From Bacteroidales bacterium (GTDB lineage Bacteria; Bacteroidota; Bacteroidia; Bacteroidales; UBA7332), in assembly GCA_028687995.1 (NCBI GenBank), contig JAQTZA010000011.1, forward strand, positions 1-64,000: a stretch of 64,000 bases of DNA, given 5' to 3'. Positions 28,500 through 49,150 of the stretch are shown here, one piece after another (the first letter of the stretch is position 1; each line of letters starts with the position of its first letter). The position numbers and the translations under genes are program-made. Under the pieces are notes generated by a model that worked only from the letters and a program-made list of their open reading frames with translations, ran no database searches and was not told where the DNA came from.

Positions 28500-28691
28500 G
28501 TTGACCCTACCCTCTTCCAAAGCCGGTCGTTCTGCGTCCCGCATTTACGGGACAGTTTATATTTAAAGCCCCTGCATTTGTTTGCAAATGACCCATCCCG
28601 AATGGAGTTTTGCTTTTAGCACTGATGCCGATAGCTATCGGTACGAGGACGCTACACCAAACAACCCACTACGGTTTATTGCACACTACGG
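28500..28691. repeat. Transposon-flanking direct repeat, copy A
   Basis: About 190 bases repeated at 29560-29763 in the same orientation. Both contain TTGACC(C/A)TA, an inverted GTCCCG...CGGGAC hairpin, TTGTTTGCAAATGACCCATCCCG, and the palindrome CCGATAGCTATCGG followed by GACGCTACACCAAACAACCC. Copy A lacks one arm of a second hairpin. The end of the tnpA gene lies inside it. Confidence 0.85.
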
Positions 28692-29137
28692 CGAACAGAG
28701 GAATCATTAAATTTTTGAAAACCAAATTTTTCTATCAACTCATTAAGCTCCTCTTCCCATGTTTTTTTAGCATGATGACTCTCTTGATTTTTAATGTAGT
28801 TTCGTACTTTATCCACCAAAGACTCCGAAACAGAAACAGCAAAATACTCATCCTGCCATTCAAATTTTTCTTTCAACAATGACTCTTTGTTTATCCAATG
28901 CGATGACTCTCCTTTTATTAATTGCATGATTTGTCTTAAAGTCTGGTCATCACCCAGCGATACCAAACAATGACAATGATCTTTATGTCCATTTACAAAA
29001 TCAATAAATATACATTTCTTTTTGGCATTCTCCCTAATATGTTTCCACATGGCTTTTCTTAACTCCGGTGTTTCCAAATATGGATACCTGTTTTTTGTGG
29101 ACCATACAAAATGAATGTAAACTTTGATAAATGGCAT
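28676..29137 (-). mobile_element. tnpA: IS200/IS605-type (Y1, HUH) transposase TnpA
   Basis: 153 residues from the ATG at 29137 (MPFIKVYIHFVWSTKNR); an upstream TTG start is possible. The HUH pair is in HKDHCHCLVS near residue 52, and the single catalytic Tyr lies in RNYIKNQ near 112. These enzymes move single-stranded DNA by recognising subterminal hairpins, or in the REP-associated form act on palindromic repeats. There is no TnpB partner. It lies between two direct repeats rich in palindromes, and further hairpins follow at 29160-29216 and 29437-29456. The gene appears intact. Confidence 0.88.
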
Positions 29138-29159
29138 ATTCTTAAATTTCAATTTATAC

Positions 29160-29763: not shown

Positions 29764-29928
29764 CTGGGGCTTATACTTATGGTAAATTATATTTACGTGT
29801 GTTATTAGTTTACCGCTGACAGTCGGTCGATTCCTTGCTTTTTTACAACAAAAGTAGAGAAATCAACCTTGCTTCTCAAATTTATTTCACTGTGCAAACC
29901 TAAGAGCGTGTGTTAGACGCTGTTTTTT

Positions 29929-30621
29929 TCAAAATCCAAAAGTCAATATTCTCTGTTTAAATTTTCCATTCACAATAATCCATAAAACCTCGTAACCACC
30001 AGCTCCGTCGCTATTAGAAGCGGAAATATAAATTGTATTAGTTTTTGTGTCAATATTGACTTTTGTGTAATCTAAGTTTGGTTCGAACAAATTGTCAATC
30101 GGTAGATTTATTTTTTCTTTTCCATAGGTTAGAGTGAATTGTCCATATTTATTTTTAGGAATATATCCGTCTGTCCCCCATATTTCCTTTCCATTTATTT
30201 TTTCCAAATAGCTCATTTCGTTTTTTGAAGCGTCACCTTTATGATATTGCAATTTGTTGTTTTGGGAATTGAATTTGGTCTTGGTCGCAAATAGTTTTAT
30301 TGAGTCTTTTTTAAAAACAACTGTTGAATCAGTTATTCTGCTGTAAGGTACGTTGTCAAATTCTTCAATGAACTTTATTCTGGAATTGTGAACATAACCA
30401 CTTTTTTCATGTCTAATAAAATCATAGTCAGTTGGCCTCCATTCACCTTCGGCTTCCAAGCAATATACGATTTGTCCATTAGTCAAAGTATCAATGACTT
30501 TACTATTGACATTTGGTGATTTCCTGACGTTCACAAAGCCGTCTTTGTCTGAAATAATTCCAAACTGTCCAAATGTAGTTTGGCTGTAAAAACAGATTAA
30601 AAAGAATAAAAATTTTCTCAT
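29929..30621 (-). CDS. Secreted SH3-domain protein of unknown function
   Basis: 230 residues with a signal peptide (MRKFLFFLICFYSQTTFGQ). Residues 22-90 form a bacterial SH3-like domain (DKDGFVNVRKSPNVNSKVIDTLTNGQIVYCLE), often involved in binding cell-wall peptides. The remainder is beta-rich and ends without a sorting domain. The gene lies within a unit bounded on the minus strand by GTTAGGTGCC (22 bases before the ATG) and GCGTCTAAC (after the stop), which are near-complementary, as in integron cassettes. Confidence 0.8.
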   Translation of the reverse strand: MRKFLFFLICFYSQTTFGQFGIISDKDGFVNVRKSPNVNSKVIDTLTNGQIVYCLEAEGEWRPTDYDFIRHEKSGYVHNSRIKFIEEFDNVPYSRITDSTVVFKKDSIKLFATKTKFNSQNNKLQYHKGDASKNEMSYLEKINGKEIWGTDGYIPKNKYGQFTLTYGKEKINLPIDNLFEPNLDYTKVNIDTKTNTIYISASNSDGAGGYEVLWIIVNGKFKQRILTFGF

Positions 30622-30651
30622 AATATCTATTTCTTGTTTTTTTTCTAAAAT

Positions 30652-30789
30652 GGCACCTAACGTTTTGGCGCTTGGCGAAGAAGCGGATTTCGAAGCACTA
30701 AACTGTCTGCCAGCACTGAACTTGATACGAAGCTCAAAACTTCATTTAAGCACTGAACCCGCCTTTTTGCCAAAAGCCTGTTATATGCA
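30652..30789 (-). other. attC-like palindromic site between two genes
   Basis: Read on the minus strand: GCATATAACAGG, TTTTGGCAAAAAGGCGGG at one end, and CGCCAAGCGCCAAAAC then GTTAGGTGCC at the other. Outer and inner arms are imperfectly complementary over about 40 bases, leaving a roughly 60-base centre. The outer boxes fit integron cores RYYYAAC and GTTRRRY (GTTAGGT exactly; ATATAAC partly). The stop codon of the HEPN/Toprim gene falls in the first box. No integrase is in the window, so the integron interpretation is inference. Confidence 0.5.
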
Positions 30790-31956
30790 GTTTTTATATA
30801 TTTCATCAAGTAGTTTCGTCAGTTTAGTAAAGTCATAATTGTCGTTCGCATTTTTTACGCTTTTGAATTCTCTTACGTAATCGTCCTTATTTTCAAGTGA
30901 GCCTTGATAAGCGTCAAATTCTTTGCTGTAATTTGTCCACCTGATTTTGGGTTTAGATTTTGACAAGTCTAAAAAACATTCTATCGCTACTGCCTTACCA
31001 TTTATATTTTCACTTGTTTCTCCTGTTGGTCCTACCGTTAAAAAATTAGTGAATTCCTCAAGTTCAGGAAGTTTCATAATTTTCATCTGTCTAGGCAAAT
31101 TAAGATTGTTAGTCTTGTTAAATTTATCCACTCCTTCTAGGTCATTGTCAAATAGAACAAGTGTTTTGTTTTGAATTCTTATGCTTGTCAAGCCCTGACA
31201 AAACCGATATAAATTTCCTGTGCCTGTGAATGGATAATTATCTTCCATATCAACGAAGGTAAAGAAGTCCAGAATGTCAGGTTTTAGAAGTTCCAAAGAC
31301 TTTTTAATAATAAAAGTGTCTGAACTACCTTCAGTTACAATTAGAAATTTATCAGTTTCCTCAACTCCTACAAAAATTTCTTTTTCGTTTGTCCAGCCTC
31401 CATCAATTACATCTTGAGTTCGCCACTCCAAATTCATTTCTAAGTTGTGAGGGTTTTCAATGAGAAGTCGAAGTGTAAAAAGAGGATCAAGGTTTTCAAA
31501 ATATGCACCTATATCTTTATCTTTAATATCAATATGTTCTTTTAAGTCTTTGAAAGTTTCGTTTAGGAAAATGTTCTCAATAACATATTCGCCTAAATCA
31601 TAATCACCGTCTTCTTTCTTGTTTTTATAGTCTGCAATATTAATTTTTGAAAAAATTGCAAGCATCGTTTCAAAACTAATTTCAGGTAGTTCTAAATAGT
31701 CAGGATAATTGTCGTTATGGTCTTGGAAATGGGTAATTAAAGTTTTTAGTGAGTAACCTAATAATTCAAGTCTGTTTTTTACCCTACCCAAAGAAGTCGA
31801 ATAGCCTGGTTTCAAAATAACTTCATCGTCAGCATAGTAATAAGGTATATCTTTTTTGTCTGATGGCAGAAATAGTTTCGAATAGTCCCTGAAACCAAAG
31901 TTTTTGCCCCAGTCAAGTTCTAATTCTCCTACTCCTAATGATATATATGAACCCAT
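30781..31956 (-). CDS. HEPN/Toprim-associated protein, candidate defence gene
   Basis: 391 residues. The N-terminus (MGSYISLGVGELELDWGKNF, then PYYYADDE) matches the HEPN/Toprim-associated N-terminal domain. A Toprim-like nucleotidyl-transfer/nuclease fold follows: acidic EGSSDTFIIKKSLE near residue 210, FVDMED near 236 and LFDNDLEG near 268 as the DxD strand. Toprim proteins with such partners are often predicted to act against phages. It is transcribed alone, with bases GTTATATGC 24 nucleotides before the ATG and GCATATAAC overlapping its stop. Predicted activity is not tested. Confidence 0.78.
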   Translation of the reverse strand: MGSYISLGVGELELDWGKNFGFRDYSKLFLPSDKKDIPYYYADDEVILKPGYSTSLGRVKNRLELLGYSLKTLITHFQDHNDNYPDYLELPEISFETMLAIFSKINIADYKNKKEDGDYDLGEYVIENIFLNETFKDLKEHIDIKDKDIGAYFENLDPLFTLRLLIENPHNLEMNLEWRTQDVIDGGWTNEKEIFVGVEETDKFLIVTEGSSDTFIIKKSLELLKPDILDFFTFVDMEDNYPFTGTGNLYRFCQGLTSIRIQNKTLVLFDNDLEGVDKFNKTNNLNLPRQMKIMKLPELEEFTNFLTVGPTGETSENINGKAVAIECFLDLSKSKPKIRWTNYSKEFDAYQGSLENKDDYVREFKSVKNANDNYDFTKLTKLLDEIYKNCI

Positions 31957-31979
31957 TGATTTTCGTCTGTGTTAAAATT

Positions 31980-32082
31980 GCATATAACATCTGTGTATAC
32001 GCCACTCAAGTTGTGTATGCGCCATAGCATGGCGCATATATCAGCCTTATGAAAAAGTAAATTATCTGAAATTCAGATAATT
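31980..32082. repeat. Cluster of palindromes upstream of the HEPN/Toprim gene
   Basis: GCATATAACA at 31980-31989 is the start box of the cassette-like unit. A perfect hairpin with arms TATGCGCCAT and ATGGCGCATA round AGC occupies 32016-32038; half of it, ATGGCGCATA, recurs at 32106-32115. A second perfect 23-base palindrome (arms AATTATCTGAA and TTCAGATAATT) lies at 32060-32082. No gene is seen in 31957-32226. Confidence 0.8.
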
Positions 32083-32329
32083 ACAGTTTATTGGTTTGAT
32101 ACGTTTATGGCGCATATCCATTTTGTTAATTTATTGTTAATTTTAAAAATCCAATTTATCTAATGGAATTTTAATTTGATCAAATCCTTTGTCTGTAATA
32201 TGCCTATATAATTAAGGTGCAAATTTCTAGAAGAATATACACTCTGCAAAACCCCTCAATTCCTCATCCCACAAATATACATACTTCACTTTATATTTTG
32301 AGTATTGGCGAATGGAAAAAGTAAACGAA

Positions 32330-32695
32330 ACTGTAAATTTTGGAGTAACTGCGCATTTTATCGGCGAAATAACGTTGTAGATAGGTGCAGCAGCGCAATG
32401 CAACGGAAGGGGATCGATGCACAAAACTACACTTAGGTAGTATAATGGTGTTATTACACAGCGTAAAACTCGCGTAACAGAGAACATTTTTCGAGTAACG
32501 TTGTACAATATAGCTCCAAGGTTATACATAACTGGAGTAACGTTATACATAACTGGAGTAACGTTATACATAACTAGAGTAACGTTGTACATAACTGGAG
32601 TAACGTTGTACATAACTGGAGTAACGTTGTACATTATTACTCCAATGTTATACATAACTGGAGTAACGTTGTGCATTGTTACTCCAGTAATGTTA
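32330..32695. repeat. 21-bp minisatellite (TAACGTTRTACATAACTGGAG)
   Basis: The core 32500-32695 holds about nine copies of a 21-base unit; older, diverged copies continue to about 32330. Because 21 is a multiple of three, frames stay open on both strands, reading VTLYITG on plus and VTPVMYN on minus. Neither has a convincing start context or a plausible non-repeat domain, so it is treated as non-coding. It fills the gap between the cassette-like region and the LuxR gene. Confidence 0.85.
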
Positions 32696-32771
32696 TCTGT
32701 TTTCTGAAAAATGGACAGTAACGAGGGAATACTAAACAGCGTAAATGGAAGAATGAGAAGTGATTTGAGCG

Positions 32772-33494
32772 TCAGATAACGCCCAAATCGTGCAGATACA
32801 TGGAGGCAAATATGATTTCGCGCACGCCTATTTTTTGCGACACCCTGCGGTTGTGGTTACTCACCGTGTTTTTCGCGATGAAGAGTTTGTCGGCAATCTC
32901 TTGGCTGTTGTAGCCCTTGCGGCAGTAGCTGGCAACCTCCAGCTCGCGCGGACAGAAGTAGCAATCTTTCTCTTTGAGCATAAATTTACGGGTGCGCTGT
33001 TGCGTAATATAGACCGATCTATGCGGTTCTGCTGTGTTGGCACCGGCTACGGGATAGAGCCACAGCGCCACCAAATCGGTATGCTCGAGCACCATAAACT
33101 TCAGCAATACCCGCTGATAGATTTCGTGGATGTTGCGCAAGCGACATTCGAAGGAGAGTGCATACTCTTTCAGCTCCTCGGTAGGCAATTTCTCCAGAAA
33201 ATGAAACGCCCGCACACACGCATCGCCGAAGTGCTCCCTATCGGGTGGTGCCACAAACAAACGAAATTCTGCCGCAGATAGCCGTTAAGAATGAAGCTGT
33301 CGGAAGTCGGATGAACCCACATGCAGAAAGTGATATTGACCGCGACCGGGGTAGAAAAGCGCCAGGGTGAGGTTGGAGGCCAAAGCGATTTGTGTCAACT
33401 GCGTCAGATGAAGAGTATCCACCTCCTCTTTTGGATGGGAAAAGGCTGGATGGGCGGTGCTGAATCGCTCGAAAAGGTGTTGAATTCGCTTCAT
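32772..33494 (-). pseudogene. LuxR-type regulator interrupted by two compensating frameshifts
   Basis: The N-terminal frame runs from 33494 to a TAA at 33285. The C-terminal part ends at 32772 and contains a clear LuxR helix-turn-helix (CPRELEVASYCRKGYNSQEI, then IAKNTVSNHNRRVSQKI). Between them, a different frame from about 33315 to 33243 reads SDSFILNGYLRQNFVCLWHHP, far more protein-like than either flanking frame. One extra base in a GGG run and one missing base in a CCC-G run would restore a single 240-residue protein. Either the gene is dead or the sequence has two errors. It is divergent from the gene at 33735. Confidence 0.75.
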
Positions 33495-33734
33495 ATCATG
33501 CGCTGATGTGGTGTTTTTAATAATTGCCTCTAAAGTATACCAAATAATTACAACGCAAAGTATGAAACAACATAAATTATATCAAATCGTGCAAAATTAA
33601 CGACTTATCGCTATTGACAACCTATTTCAATGTTACTAATTTTACACCGAGTAAATCGACTACTCGATGGGTCGCCACTCTTCATCCGATTTTTTATCAA
33701 TTAATTATACTATAACTACTTAAACCTTTTATTC

Positions 33735-46880: not shown

Positions 46881-47534
46881 TCAGATTTTATCAGATTCCA
46901 CAATCGTCACTCCTACTTTTTCCATCAACGACTCGCGAATCAAACACGCTGCCACTTTCGATGCTTCCACGCCTCTGTATTTTCGCAATTTTCCGATTAA
47001 TAACGGAGCAAATAATTTGATCAACGGAGTCATAATCACCTCTCCCAGTCGGAATTCCTGACGATCGCCCAATAGCAGAGAAGGGCGAGCAATCACCAAA
47101 CGATTGAACCCAATCTCCATCAAACTCTGCTCCATCTCCCCTTTTGTACGGATGTAAAAATTGGAAGAGGTGTGATTCGCACCCAAAGAAGAGACTACAG
47201 CAAAGCTACTTACCTTGTTTTGGCGGCATGCTTTGGCAGCATTCACCACATATTCGTAATCAATCTTATATTGTGCAGCCTCACTGCCGGCTTTCTTTAT
47301 CGTAGTGCCCAATGCACAAAAGACATAATCCACGGAGTGTTCCCATGTTTGTGGCAGCGCATCGAAATCGACGACCTGTTGTATCAACTTCGGGTCGCTT
47401 ACCTCCAAGCGCTTACGCACCCAGACGGTCACCGTTTCAAATCGTTCGTCTGCCAAGAGCTGTTTCATCAACTCCTGCCCTATAAGTCCACTTGCGCCAA
47501 TAATCAACGCTTTGCTTGTCGTTTTCTTCATCAT
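46881..47534 (-). CDS. NAD(P)-binding Rossmann protein (atypical SDR, HTATIP2-like)
   Basis: 217 residues. Dinucleotide site at the start: ALIIGASGLIGQELMKQLL. Middle signatures VDYVFCALGTTIKKAGS, SSFAVVSSLGANHTSSNFYIRTKGEME and RPSLLLGDRQEFR match the HTATIP2/YwnB-like NAD(P)H-binding oxidoreductase group. Substrate unknown. Confidence 0.88.
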   Translation of the reverse strand: MMKKTTSKALIIGASGLIGQELMKQLLADERFETVTVWVRKRLEVSDPKLIQQVVDFDALPQTWEHSVDYVFCALGTTIKKAGSEAAQYKIDYEYVVNAAKACRQNKVSSFAVVSSLGANHTSSNFYIRTKGEMEQSLMEIGFNRLVIARPSLLLGDRQEFRLGEVIMTPLIKLFAPLLIGKLRKYRGVEASKVAACLIRESLMEKVGVTIVESDKI

Positions 47535-47671
47535 TTTTATTCTTCTACCTTGTGTACTCTTTTTAATTTCTTGAGTAGCTGTTAAAATAGGTCGCTTTCT
47601 CCATAACTGACTTTATCGCCTTCTTAAAAGCTCGTTGTGCTAGGTTCTACTATCGGGAATTTATTTCAACC

Positions 47672-47709
47672 TGGTCTTCATGCTCGGTCTTGCAGACCGC
47701 ACGAAGTCC
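47672..47709. repeat. Extended hairpin downstream of the unknown membrane-protein gene
   Basis: CGGTCT-TGC-AGACCG (47685-47699) is a perfect hairpin, extended outwards by GGTCTTCATGC and GCACGAAGTCC with two mismatches. On the minus strand it follows the unit-end box GGCTACAAT (47715-47723), in the position expected of an attC-like site. Confidence 0.7.
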
Positions 47710-47735
47710 TATGTATTGTAGCCAGTTTTTATTTA

Positions 47736-48200
47736 TTATGTTTCATGTTGTTCAACCTTAATAACCTTACCATTCTCAAAATAGATGTCCAAAACATCAG
47801 GGTCAATATTAAATAATCCTGGAACAAATCCTAAGTCATAAGCAACGTGATTATCGTCATATCTATAAAAATCACTGCCCAATAGATTAATAACTTCATC
47901 TTTTGTTTTCCCAATCAATAATTCATGTTCAATAATATCATGCGACATTTTGTATCGTTCGTCCTTGTTCAAATCCCATTTTTGTTTATTAAAGTCAGTT
48001 TTTGGATAATATAAAATCGAAAAAATCCAAATCATCACGATTCCAACATAAAGAATTGGACTTAGAATAATTGTCGGAATAATAGCTAAAAATCTTCTGT
48101 TTTTATCATTACCAAGTTTGAACTTTTTTAAAATCCATTTTGACAAAAAGTAAACTGGAATTGCTAATATCAGTATTATTATCGGAACTTCTAAACTCAT
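47736..48200 (-). CDS. Membrane protein of unknown function
   Basis: 154 residues: two membrane segments (about 5-20 and 43-65) and a soluble C-terminal domain (HELLIGKTKDEVINLLGSDFYRYDDNHVAYDLGFVPGLFNIDPDVLDIYFENGKV) whose pattern of 'GKTKDEVINLLG' and 'YDLG' is seen in many small outer-membrane-associated BamE-like proteins, though that is only a resemblance. It lies one base after the small gene upstream (48202), so the two are one transcript and one cassette-like unit. Confidence 0.7.
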   Translation of the reverse strand: MSLEVPIIILILAIPVYFLSKWILKKFKLGNDKNRRFLAIIPTIILSPILYVGIVMIWIFSILYYPKTDFNKQKWDLNKDERYKMSHDIIEHELLIGKTKDEVINLLGSDFYRYDDNHVAYDLGFVPGLFNIDPDVLDIYFENGKVIKVEQHET

Positions 48201-48201
48201 T

Positions 48202-48396
48202 TTATTCTAATATTTTATCAATTGATTGTTTATCTACTCGAATGGCTTCCAAAATTATCCTAGCCAATTTTTTATCATTAATTTTTGCTTTATCAAATGT
48301 GTCCATTAATCCAGTTAAGTATAATCTTTCGTTAACAGTCATACCTCCAAGTCCATCAACCTTTTCCACTTTTTTGTAAATATCATCTTTTGTCAT
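48202..48396 (-). CDS. Small conserved-looking protein of unknown function
   Basis: 64 residues from the second ATG (MTKDDIYKKVEKVDGLGGMT); an ATG nine bases earlier is possible. All-alpha prediction, charged (NERLYLTGLMDTFDKAKINDKKLARIILEAIRVD). I know similar short proteins in other Bacteroidetes but no function. It precedes the membrane-protein gene. The first bases of the unit, GTTGTAGCCAATTTTAGA on the minus strand (48420-48437), lie 23 bases before it. Confidence 0.75.
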   Translation of the reverse strand: MTKDDIYKKVEKVDGLGGMTVNERLYLTGLMDTFDKAKINDKKLARIILEAIRVDKQSIDKILE

Positions 48397-48738
48397 TTGT
48401 TTCAATTTGCAGGTGATTCTCTAAAATTGGCTACAACATCAATATAACTGCAACTCCAATTTTCATACGCTCACCTGCATTGCGCTTATATCCACTTTGT
48501 GTACATTTTCAAAAATTATTAACATATTGAATTGATGCAATAACAAATGATACTAAACTCGTTGAGTTCACAAGATTTCTGGTCAAAGTTTACGAATGGA
48601 TGTTTTGGTTTATTTTTTCAAAGATAAATATATTAATCAGAAAGTCAAATTAAACTATTCGCTTCACTTCTTCAAAAAAAACGAGCAGAACCCTCTTCGA
48701 CAAACATTTCATCAAGTCCGACTTAAATCAACCCTAAC

Positions 48739-49150
48739 TCGGCAGACACCGACCATCCTTTGGCAGACATCGACCAAACTTTGGCAGACATCGAACATCC
48801 TTCGGCAAAGATTGAACATTCCTTGACAGAGATTGACCCTACCTCGGCACAGATTGACCGAGCTTTGGCACAGATCGAACGTCCTTTGGCAGACATCGAA
48901 CGTCCTTTGGCAGACATCGAACGTCCTTCGGCACAGATTGAACATTCCTTGACAAAGATTTACCCTACCTCGACACAGATTGTCCGAGCTTTGGCACAGA
49001 TTGACCGAGCTTTGGCACAGATCGAACGTACTTCGATAGACATCGAACGTCCTTCGGAAGACATCTAACGTCCTTCGGCAGACATCTAACGTCCTTCGGC
49101 AGACATCTAACATTCCTTGACAGAGATTGACCCTACCTCGGCACAGATTA
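48739..49150. repeat. Second 21-bp minisatellite (GGCAGACATCGAACGTCCTTT)
   Basis: About 20 copies of a 21-base unit with related variants (GGCACAGATTGACCGAGCTTT, GACAGAGATTGACCCTACCTC). The frames on both strands are open over hundreds of bases; plus reads heptads such as PLADIER, minus reads FDVCQRT. Neither has a sound start or non-repeat domain, so it is scored as non-coding. It is unrelated in sequence to the minisatellite at 32330. The rest of 48406-49220 holds nothing else recognised. Confidence 0.88.

Follow-up and report, generated by a model that had tools for sequence, protein, structure and literature searches.

Unit C and its genes

Unit C is located at 47668..48437 on the minus strand of the 64-kb window, i.e., the whole stretch of DNA analyzed here. 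It reads GTTGTAGCCAATTTTAGA from position 48437, where it starts at G/TTGTAGCC (the slash marks the border), and extends to the right end of a 3' hairpin, this right border being approximate (GGTTGAAAT at about 47668-47660). Two open reading frames are contained in it on the minus strand, gene 1 (48202..48396, 64 aa) and gene 2 (47736..48200, 154 aa), neither of which could be assigned to a Pfam family; a relative of gene 1 (50 % identity, 36 aa) is encoded in a cassette-rich region (G001:C1, L193). The start GTTGTAGCCAATTTTA and the end AAAACTGGCTACAAT of the unit form a long complementary pair, and the inverted pair 47716-47729/48423-48436 is one of only two inverted repeats of at least 14 nt within 47000-49000. 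The attC-like 3' end (47652..47723, minus) comprises the R'' sequence GGCTACAAT (47723-47715) and an imperfect hairpin (47709-47672) and is referred to as a type-2 end (AATACATAG..CTTCGTGCGGTC..). Joined to the start of the same unit, it folds at -19.5, compared to -5.6 ± 2.0 in shuffles. Start, R'' sequence, hairpin and both genes had been placed at the same positions in the first-pass annotation, and all of them were confirmed.

The match between start and end of unit C covers 8 of 9 bases, with G opposite T at the first position. Since congener units with the type-2 3' element likewise end with AAT and not with AAC, this deviation is systematic. Two other type-2 cassettes in congeners, one of them present in both congeners, match their own starts, again with G opposite T at position 1; for five more type-2 copies, no matching start was found within 2.5 kb. 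The hairpin of unit C also occurs at the ends of other units of its own genome (C21, C6) and in two congeners, and the type-2 element runs on beyond the hairpin in congeners. Repeated long palindromes of the GCGCGAGTTTAGCGATAGCGTAACTCGCGC type are present behind several cassette ends in the genus (L193, L194, L191, L192, L190), where they truncate the type-2 element at differing points. A search of Rfam gave no match at gathering score. Assignment of the 3' element as the end of a group II intron was dropped, since the gap between hairpin and border amounts to only about 9 nt.

An attI-like site of weak resemblance (GAGCGTATGAAAATTGGAGTTGCAGTTATATTGATG/TT) is located at 48437..48472 (minus). 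Compared with the attI of unit A and with G1C1b, it outscores all 52 background GATGTT sites; compared with the attI of C7 or G1C5, it does not outscore all of them. No recombinase gene or stub adjoins unit C. An orthologous empty site could not be found in congeners because local gene order is not kept in them, the neighbouring tRNA-synthetase gene alone being common to them. Minisatellites with a period of 21 nt, differing in sequence, are located upstream of both cassette platforms of the window (32446-32697 and 48699-48992).

Units A and B

A second array is located on the same strand about 16 kb away. It is preceded by a C-terminal stub of a recombinase gene (32143..32211, minus; LYRHITDKGFDQIKIPLDKLDF plus stop codon), which corresponds to approximately the last 22 codons and is recovered by tblastn with the intact recombinase encoded at C7 of the same genome (see below; 76 % over 21 aa, E 4e-5). 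The stub stands immediately before the attI of units A and B (31988..32126, minus), which ends GGCGCATACACAACTTGAGTGGCGTATACACAGATG/TT, is 83 % identical to the attI at G000:C22 and 78 % to the copy at C18, and also resembles the attI of Runella. Unit A (30661..31988, minus; R'' at 30788-30780, right end ACG/TTAGG at 30661) is a cassette with attC and carries a gene (30781..31956, minus) for a protein of 391 aa with an N-terminal HEPN/Toprim domain (PF18871). Its 3' end forms a 125-nt palindrome (R'' TGCATATAAC AGGCTTTTGGC ... GCCAAGCGCC AAAAC GTTA), directly abutted by the start of unit B. The latter cassette (29912..30661, minus) starts with GTTAGGTGCC and ends with GCGTCTAAC (29920-29912), the two showing partial complementarity (11/15), and encodes an SH3 domain protein of 230 aa (29929..30621, minus), the homologue of which in Brumimicrobium (L112) likewise forms a cassette, whose start and end pair perfectly over 9 nt. 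Since recombinase codons precede the attI of unit A, the A/B array represents a decayed integron-like platform.

In the vicinity, a gene for a Y1 (IS200-like) transposase (28676-29152) is flanked by direct repeats (28495-28690/29556-29763, 83–91 % alike), resembling a REP-associated transposase unit. At 32772-33510 (minus), on the upstream side of the A/B platform, there is a reading frame with internal stops, the 3' part of which is similar to LuxR-type regulators.

Start motif and start/end complementarity

The first-pass annotation had regarded a common start sequence as diagnostic of the units, naming hits no more frequent than chance as the outcome that would speak against this. For the start motif alone, chance frequency is what was found: the motif GTTNNNNGCMAATTTTA with up to 3 mismatches matches 81 times in the window (86 expected), and the proposed genome-wide search with the similar pattern GTTRNRNGCMANTTT gave 8 matches, the same number as its reversed control. 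By itself, the start motif is thus not informative. Likewise, the pattern GCCAARCNCNNNNACGTTA has about as many matches in 198 relatives as its reversed control; several of its matches are true attC-like sites.

The proposed complementarity of start and end withstood scrutiny. A rule was applied which demands complementarity at positions 2-10, A opposite C at position 11, at least three of four pairs at positions 12-15 and ends 300-1500 nt apart. It is satisfied at exactly two places in the window, i.e., at 48437 (unit C) and at 31988 (unit A) on the same strand, and at none in 30 shuffles.

The first-pass annotation had also inferred dispersed insertion. Its core holds, in that independent units are present at separate places. 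A random scatter does not, because A and B constitute a short array whose attI-like site follows the recombinase stub, while unit C is solitary, at an attI-like site of weaker resemblance; hence, there are several insertion platforms. The isolated units, the repeated palindromes and the Y1 transposase nearby would also suit MITE-like insertion elements, or ones mobilized by XerCD or by a REP-type transposase, with ends complementary by chance. However, each unit end matches its own start rather than a common terminal repeat, and adjacent units, arranged head to tail, are separated by just one hairpin, rendering such an origin highly improbable. The units are instead cassettes in the manner of integrons, an identity that the first-pass annotation had left unnamed.

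Cassette anatomy across Bacteroidota

A pattern from the left arm of the 3' element of unit A, taken from relatives, was used to collect attC-like sites in at least 120 stretches of the genome collection. Nearly all matches belong to Bacteroidota, distributed over many families, and represent near-identical elements between variable flanks, this near-identity being partly due to ascertainment, since selection relied on an exact 19-base pattern; a minority are unrelated chance matches. When the reverse complement of the 9-mer following an attC-like site was sought downstream, 34 of 59 sites had one (swapped partners: 1.6 expected, maximum 6); for the 9-mer preceding the site, sought upstream, 43 of 76 did (1.9 expected, maximum 6). 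Among 75 cassettes, positions 12-15, which were outside the selection, are paired to 80–89 % as compared to 31–65 % expected, position 11 is always A and stands opposite C or G in 96 %, and pairing ends at position 16. Units A and C conform to this anatomy. The two ends of a cassette thus appear to form one attC in the excised circle, following the logic of integron cassettes. The second cassette of Runella carries a gene matching the candidate phage-defence family PDC-S06. A search of plasmids with attC as DNA query yielded only two weak matches, both from Riemerella.

In predicted folds of the joined circle junctions, the bottom strand is more stable in 43 of 44 cases, with unit C as the one exception (top strand -19.5, bottom strand -16.6). 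For classical integrons, the bottom strand has been reported as the substrate (PMC2727003). A hairpin 3' of genes and the folding of a single strand could also reflect an RNA feature, i.e., a terminator or a long-range transcript structure, rather than a recombination site. Yet the paired ends are 500-2300 nt apart with whole genes between them, the preference for the bottom (non-coding) strand is opposite to the expectation from selection on transcripts, and the pattern adjoins a recombinase gene. An RNA feature is accordingly the least credible of the explanations weighed here, even less so than insertion elements.

Recombinase genes adjoining the cassettes

The own genome encodes an intact tyrosine recombinase (557 aa) at C7 (G000:C7), together with an attI ending GTTCGCATACACAGTTG/TT and three self-complementary cassettes, as well as a broken recombinase copy with attI at C22. 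A further attI copy (G000:C18:59919-60052, L268) is 78 % identical to that of unit A and has no self-complementary cassette behind it by the test applied.

Tyrosine recombinases adjoin several arrays; in Runella, Belliella and a Bacteroidales genome, some 90-110 nt separate the end of the gene from the first cassette. A search by recombinase protein alone, independent of attC, provided 50 testable loci. In 30 of them, a self-complementary first cassette comes after the recombinase gene, compared to 2.6 expected from shuffles and to 4 of 49 in the upstream control; the cassette starts at a median distance of 96 nt past the recombinase stop codon (33-255 nt, 30 of 50 loci). By anatomy, an attI-like site is indicated in 30 of the 50 loci, often as a palindrome plus TATANACAA/GTT. 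The other 20 loci have no first cassette by the self-complementarity test.

The catalytic residues R417, K442, H506, R509, H532 and Y541 (alignment numbering) are kept in at least 93 % of 34 recombinases. The best PDB match of the C7-type recombinase is the integron integrase of Vibrio (2a3v), which aligns on both sides of an unmatched stretch; residues about 182-243 of 2a3v (about 62) find no match, the recombinase having 19 residues there. Correspondingly, the GLRxxE-HxLRH spacing is 91-98 in Bacteroidia recombinases versus 132-133 in six IntI. With 220 bits, the recombinase scores below the TIGR02249 cut-off (265) and falls outside the IntI family by this model, and its score of 219 is below the cut-off of the XerA model NF040815 (220). 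Phylogenetically, the six IntI group as a clade (100/99) distinct from the 63 proteins of the new family, placement of the latter on one side of a branch being weakly supported (57/51); the two Xer rows form long branches, and the own genome's Xer-like proteins are separate from the new recombinase family.

Full-length recombinases (C7, Runella) carry N-terminal repeats that match HARP and DUF5710 at sub-threshold level, other members being shorter. In the recombinases of L198, L090 and L122, a beta-beta-alpha unit recurs within the N-terminal 180-285 aa, matching HARP, UvsW_N and DUF5710 below threshold. This domain possibly reads DNA structure. Since the AlphaFold model of the Runella recombinase is poor (mean pLDDT 55), its Foldseek ranks (2a3v first, XPB domain weak) represent leads only.

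Comparison with known systems

The Bacteroidia system shares with classical integrons (class 1, Vibrio superintegron) the recombinase gene with adjoining attI, the head-to-tail cassettes with small, mostly unknown-function genes, the imperfect-palindrome 3' sites with G/TT border and cassette-specific R''/R' complementarity, and the better predicted folding of the bottom strand. Unlike classical integrons, the Bacteroidia recombinase is devoid of the IntI-specific insert of roughly 40 residues and is extended by N-terminal repeats in full-length members, the attC stem reaches into the cassette by 15 nt and has a constant A-C mismatch at position 11, the attI contains a palindrome and the recombinase gene is oriented toward the array. 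Cassettes ending in an attC whose R'' is complementary to their own start, a hallmark of integrons, are present. From its sequence features, the system appears to work like an integron, yet it fails the defining IntI test.

XerCD/pdif modules are defined by a 28-bp dif-like site with XerC and XerD arms. XerA, XerC and XerD likewise are tyrosine recombinases of similar core length, and the XerA model NF040815 scores the recombinase almost as high as the integron model. In contrast to pdif modules, the borders observed here are G/TT hairpin ends, and the recombinase family adjoins cassette arrays and is separate in the tree.

CALIN are defined by at least 2 attC within 4 kb and no integrase near. 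Unit C is single; in the A/B array, one attC is good and the other decayed, and a recombinase stub is present. Both resemble CALIN in lacking an intact adjoining recombinase; they differ in that a stub persists beside A/B and an intact recombinase is encoded elsewhere in the genome.

Distribution and plasmid contexts

Going by its relatives, the own genome belongs to the class Bacteroidia and probably to the Bacteroidales. Relatives of the recombinase were found at E 1e-60 in 94 of 198 Bacteroidia genomes (47 %) and 67 of 121 genera, this count referring to members of the recombinase family and not to proven integrons. Classical IntI scores above cut-off in only 1 of the 198. In a sample of the wider phylum (as defined by GTDB), it does so in 84 of 296 genomes, nearly all of them outside the class Bacteroidia. 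The two recombinase families are split by class in a near-clean manner.

The frequency of classical IntI in the wider phylum (84/296), together with the recognition of attC clusters without IntI as a kind of their own (PMC9024848), could suggest that the cassettes represent remnants of the CALIN type, or imports mobilized through the classical IntI of another species, and that the Bacteroidia recombinase adjoining some arrays does something else. Against this stand the near-absence of IntI from Bacteroidia and the location of the Bacteroidia recombinase, which in 30 of 50 loci precedes a self-complementary first cassette by 33-255 nt. Moreover, the R boxes of IntI sites are short, whereas the stem of the attC sites described here measures 15 nt and includes a fixed mismatch. 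Mobilization by a foreign IntI is consequently judged very unlikely, if the least improbable of the three alternatives.

A recombinase, an attI-like site and a self-complementary cassette are jointly present on the Chryseobacterium plasmid NZ_CP041688.1 (L230); as the full set is carried there, the platform can be plasmid-borne. On Acinetobacter plasmids, the TnpF/"xerD" recombinase beside tet(X3) and tet(X5) is 70.6 % identical over 238 aa to the C7 recombinase; behind it come an attI-like palindrome ending CACTTG/TTATGTGCC and, next, tet(X3) or tet(X5). Differing from the recombinase of the own genome, this gene is shorter and resides on plasmids with ISCR2. Both resistance genes occupy the position of a first cassette (L229 4052-6120, FJ012881.1; L228 4052-6073, NZ_CP044520.1). 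Behind tet(X3), part of an attC-like element is present, the R'' of which matches the start only partly. The context has been named xerD-tet(X3)-res with ISCR2 and its recombinase xerD or tpnF, not as part of an integron (PMC8635130, PMC7530245).

Proposed mechanism

Cassette anatomy, self-complementarity, the order recombinase-attI-cassette and conservation across the class are directly apparent from the sequences. Unit C is very probably a gene cassette of a Bacteroidota integron-like system employing a tyrosine recombinase of the C7 family. In this system, a recombinase of the 557-aa C7 family would join a circular cassette to attI, presumably performing the catalysis itself. The recombination site would be the hairpin formed by the two ends of the cassette, the last bases ..AAAACTGGCTACAAT pairing with the first TTGTAGCCAATTTT.., and by the imperfect palindrome between them, with the bottom strand as probable substrate. 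After strand exchange at the G/TT of attI, the likely point of crossover, the cassette would begin at the attI border and carry its hairpin downstream of the genes, and arrays would grow through repeated insertion. The insert of IntI has been described as essential for integron function (PMC8138268); its absence from the Bacteroidia recombinases is counted against the assignment of unit C to an integron-like system.

A more far-reaching reading, in which confidence is less than even, is that a second, separately specialised integron lineage serves the Bacteroidia. Its integrase would read the folded, single-stranded attC without the IntI insert. The N-terminal repeats of full-length members, weakly similar to HARP/XPB-type DNA-recognition folds, may read attC, and the 15-nt R stem with its fixed mismatch may provide strand choice. 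On this reading, the tet(X) genes that Acinetobacter plasmids carry today would have had their original platform in this lineage.

Implications for Bacteroidia

Integrons are regarded as almost absent from Bacteroidetes; a survey of 2022 reported one complete integron there, in Salinibacter (PMC9024848). No earlier description of a Bacteroidia integron-like system was found in the open-access full-text papers searched; the novelty of the system is therefore provisional. In the present sample, 47 % of the Bacteroidia genomes show indications of an integron-like system with a recombinase family of its own. Surveys defining integrons by classical IntI would overlook the system. As a route of gene exchange, it would be large and so far unstudied, and at least one of its cassettes carries a gene that matches a candidate phage-defence family. 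Furthermore, it would serve as a natural test of the need for the IntI insert in recombination of folded attC, and the mobile context of tet(X) may have originated from it.
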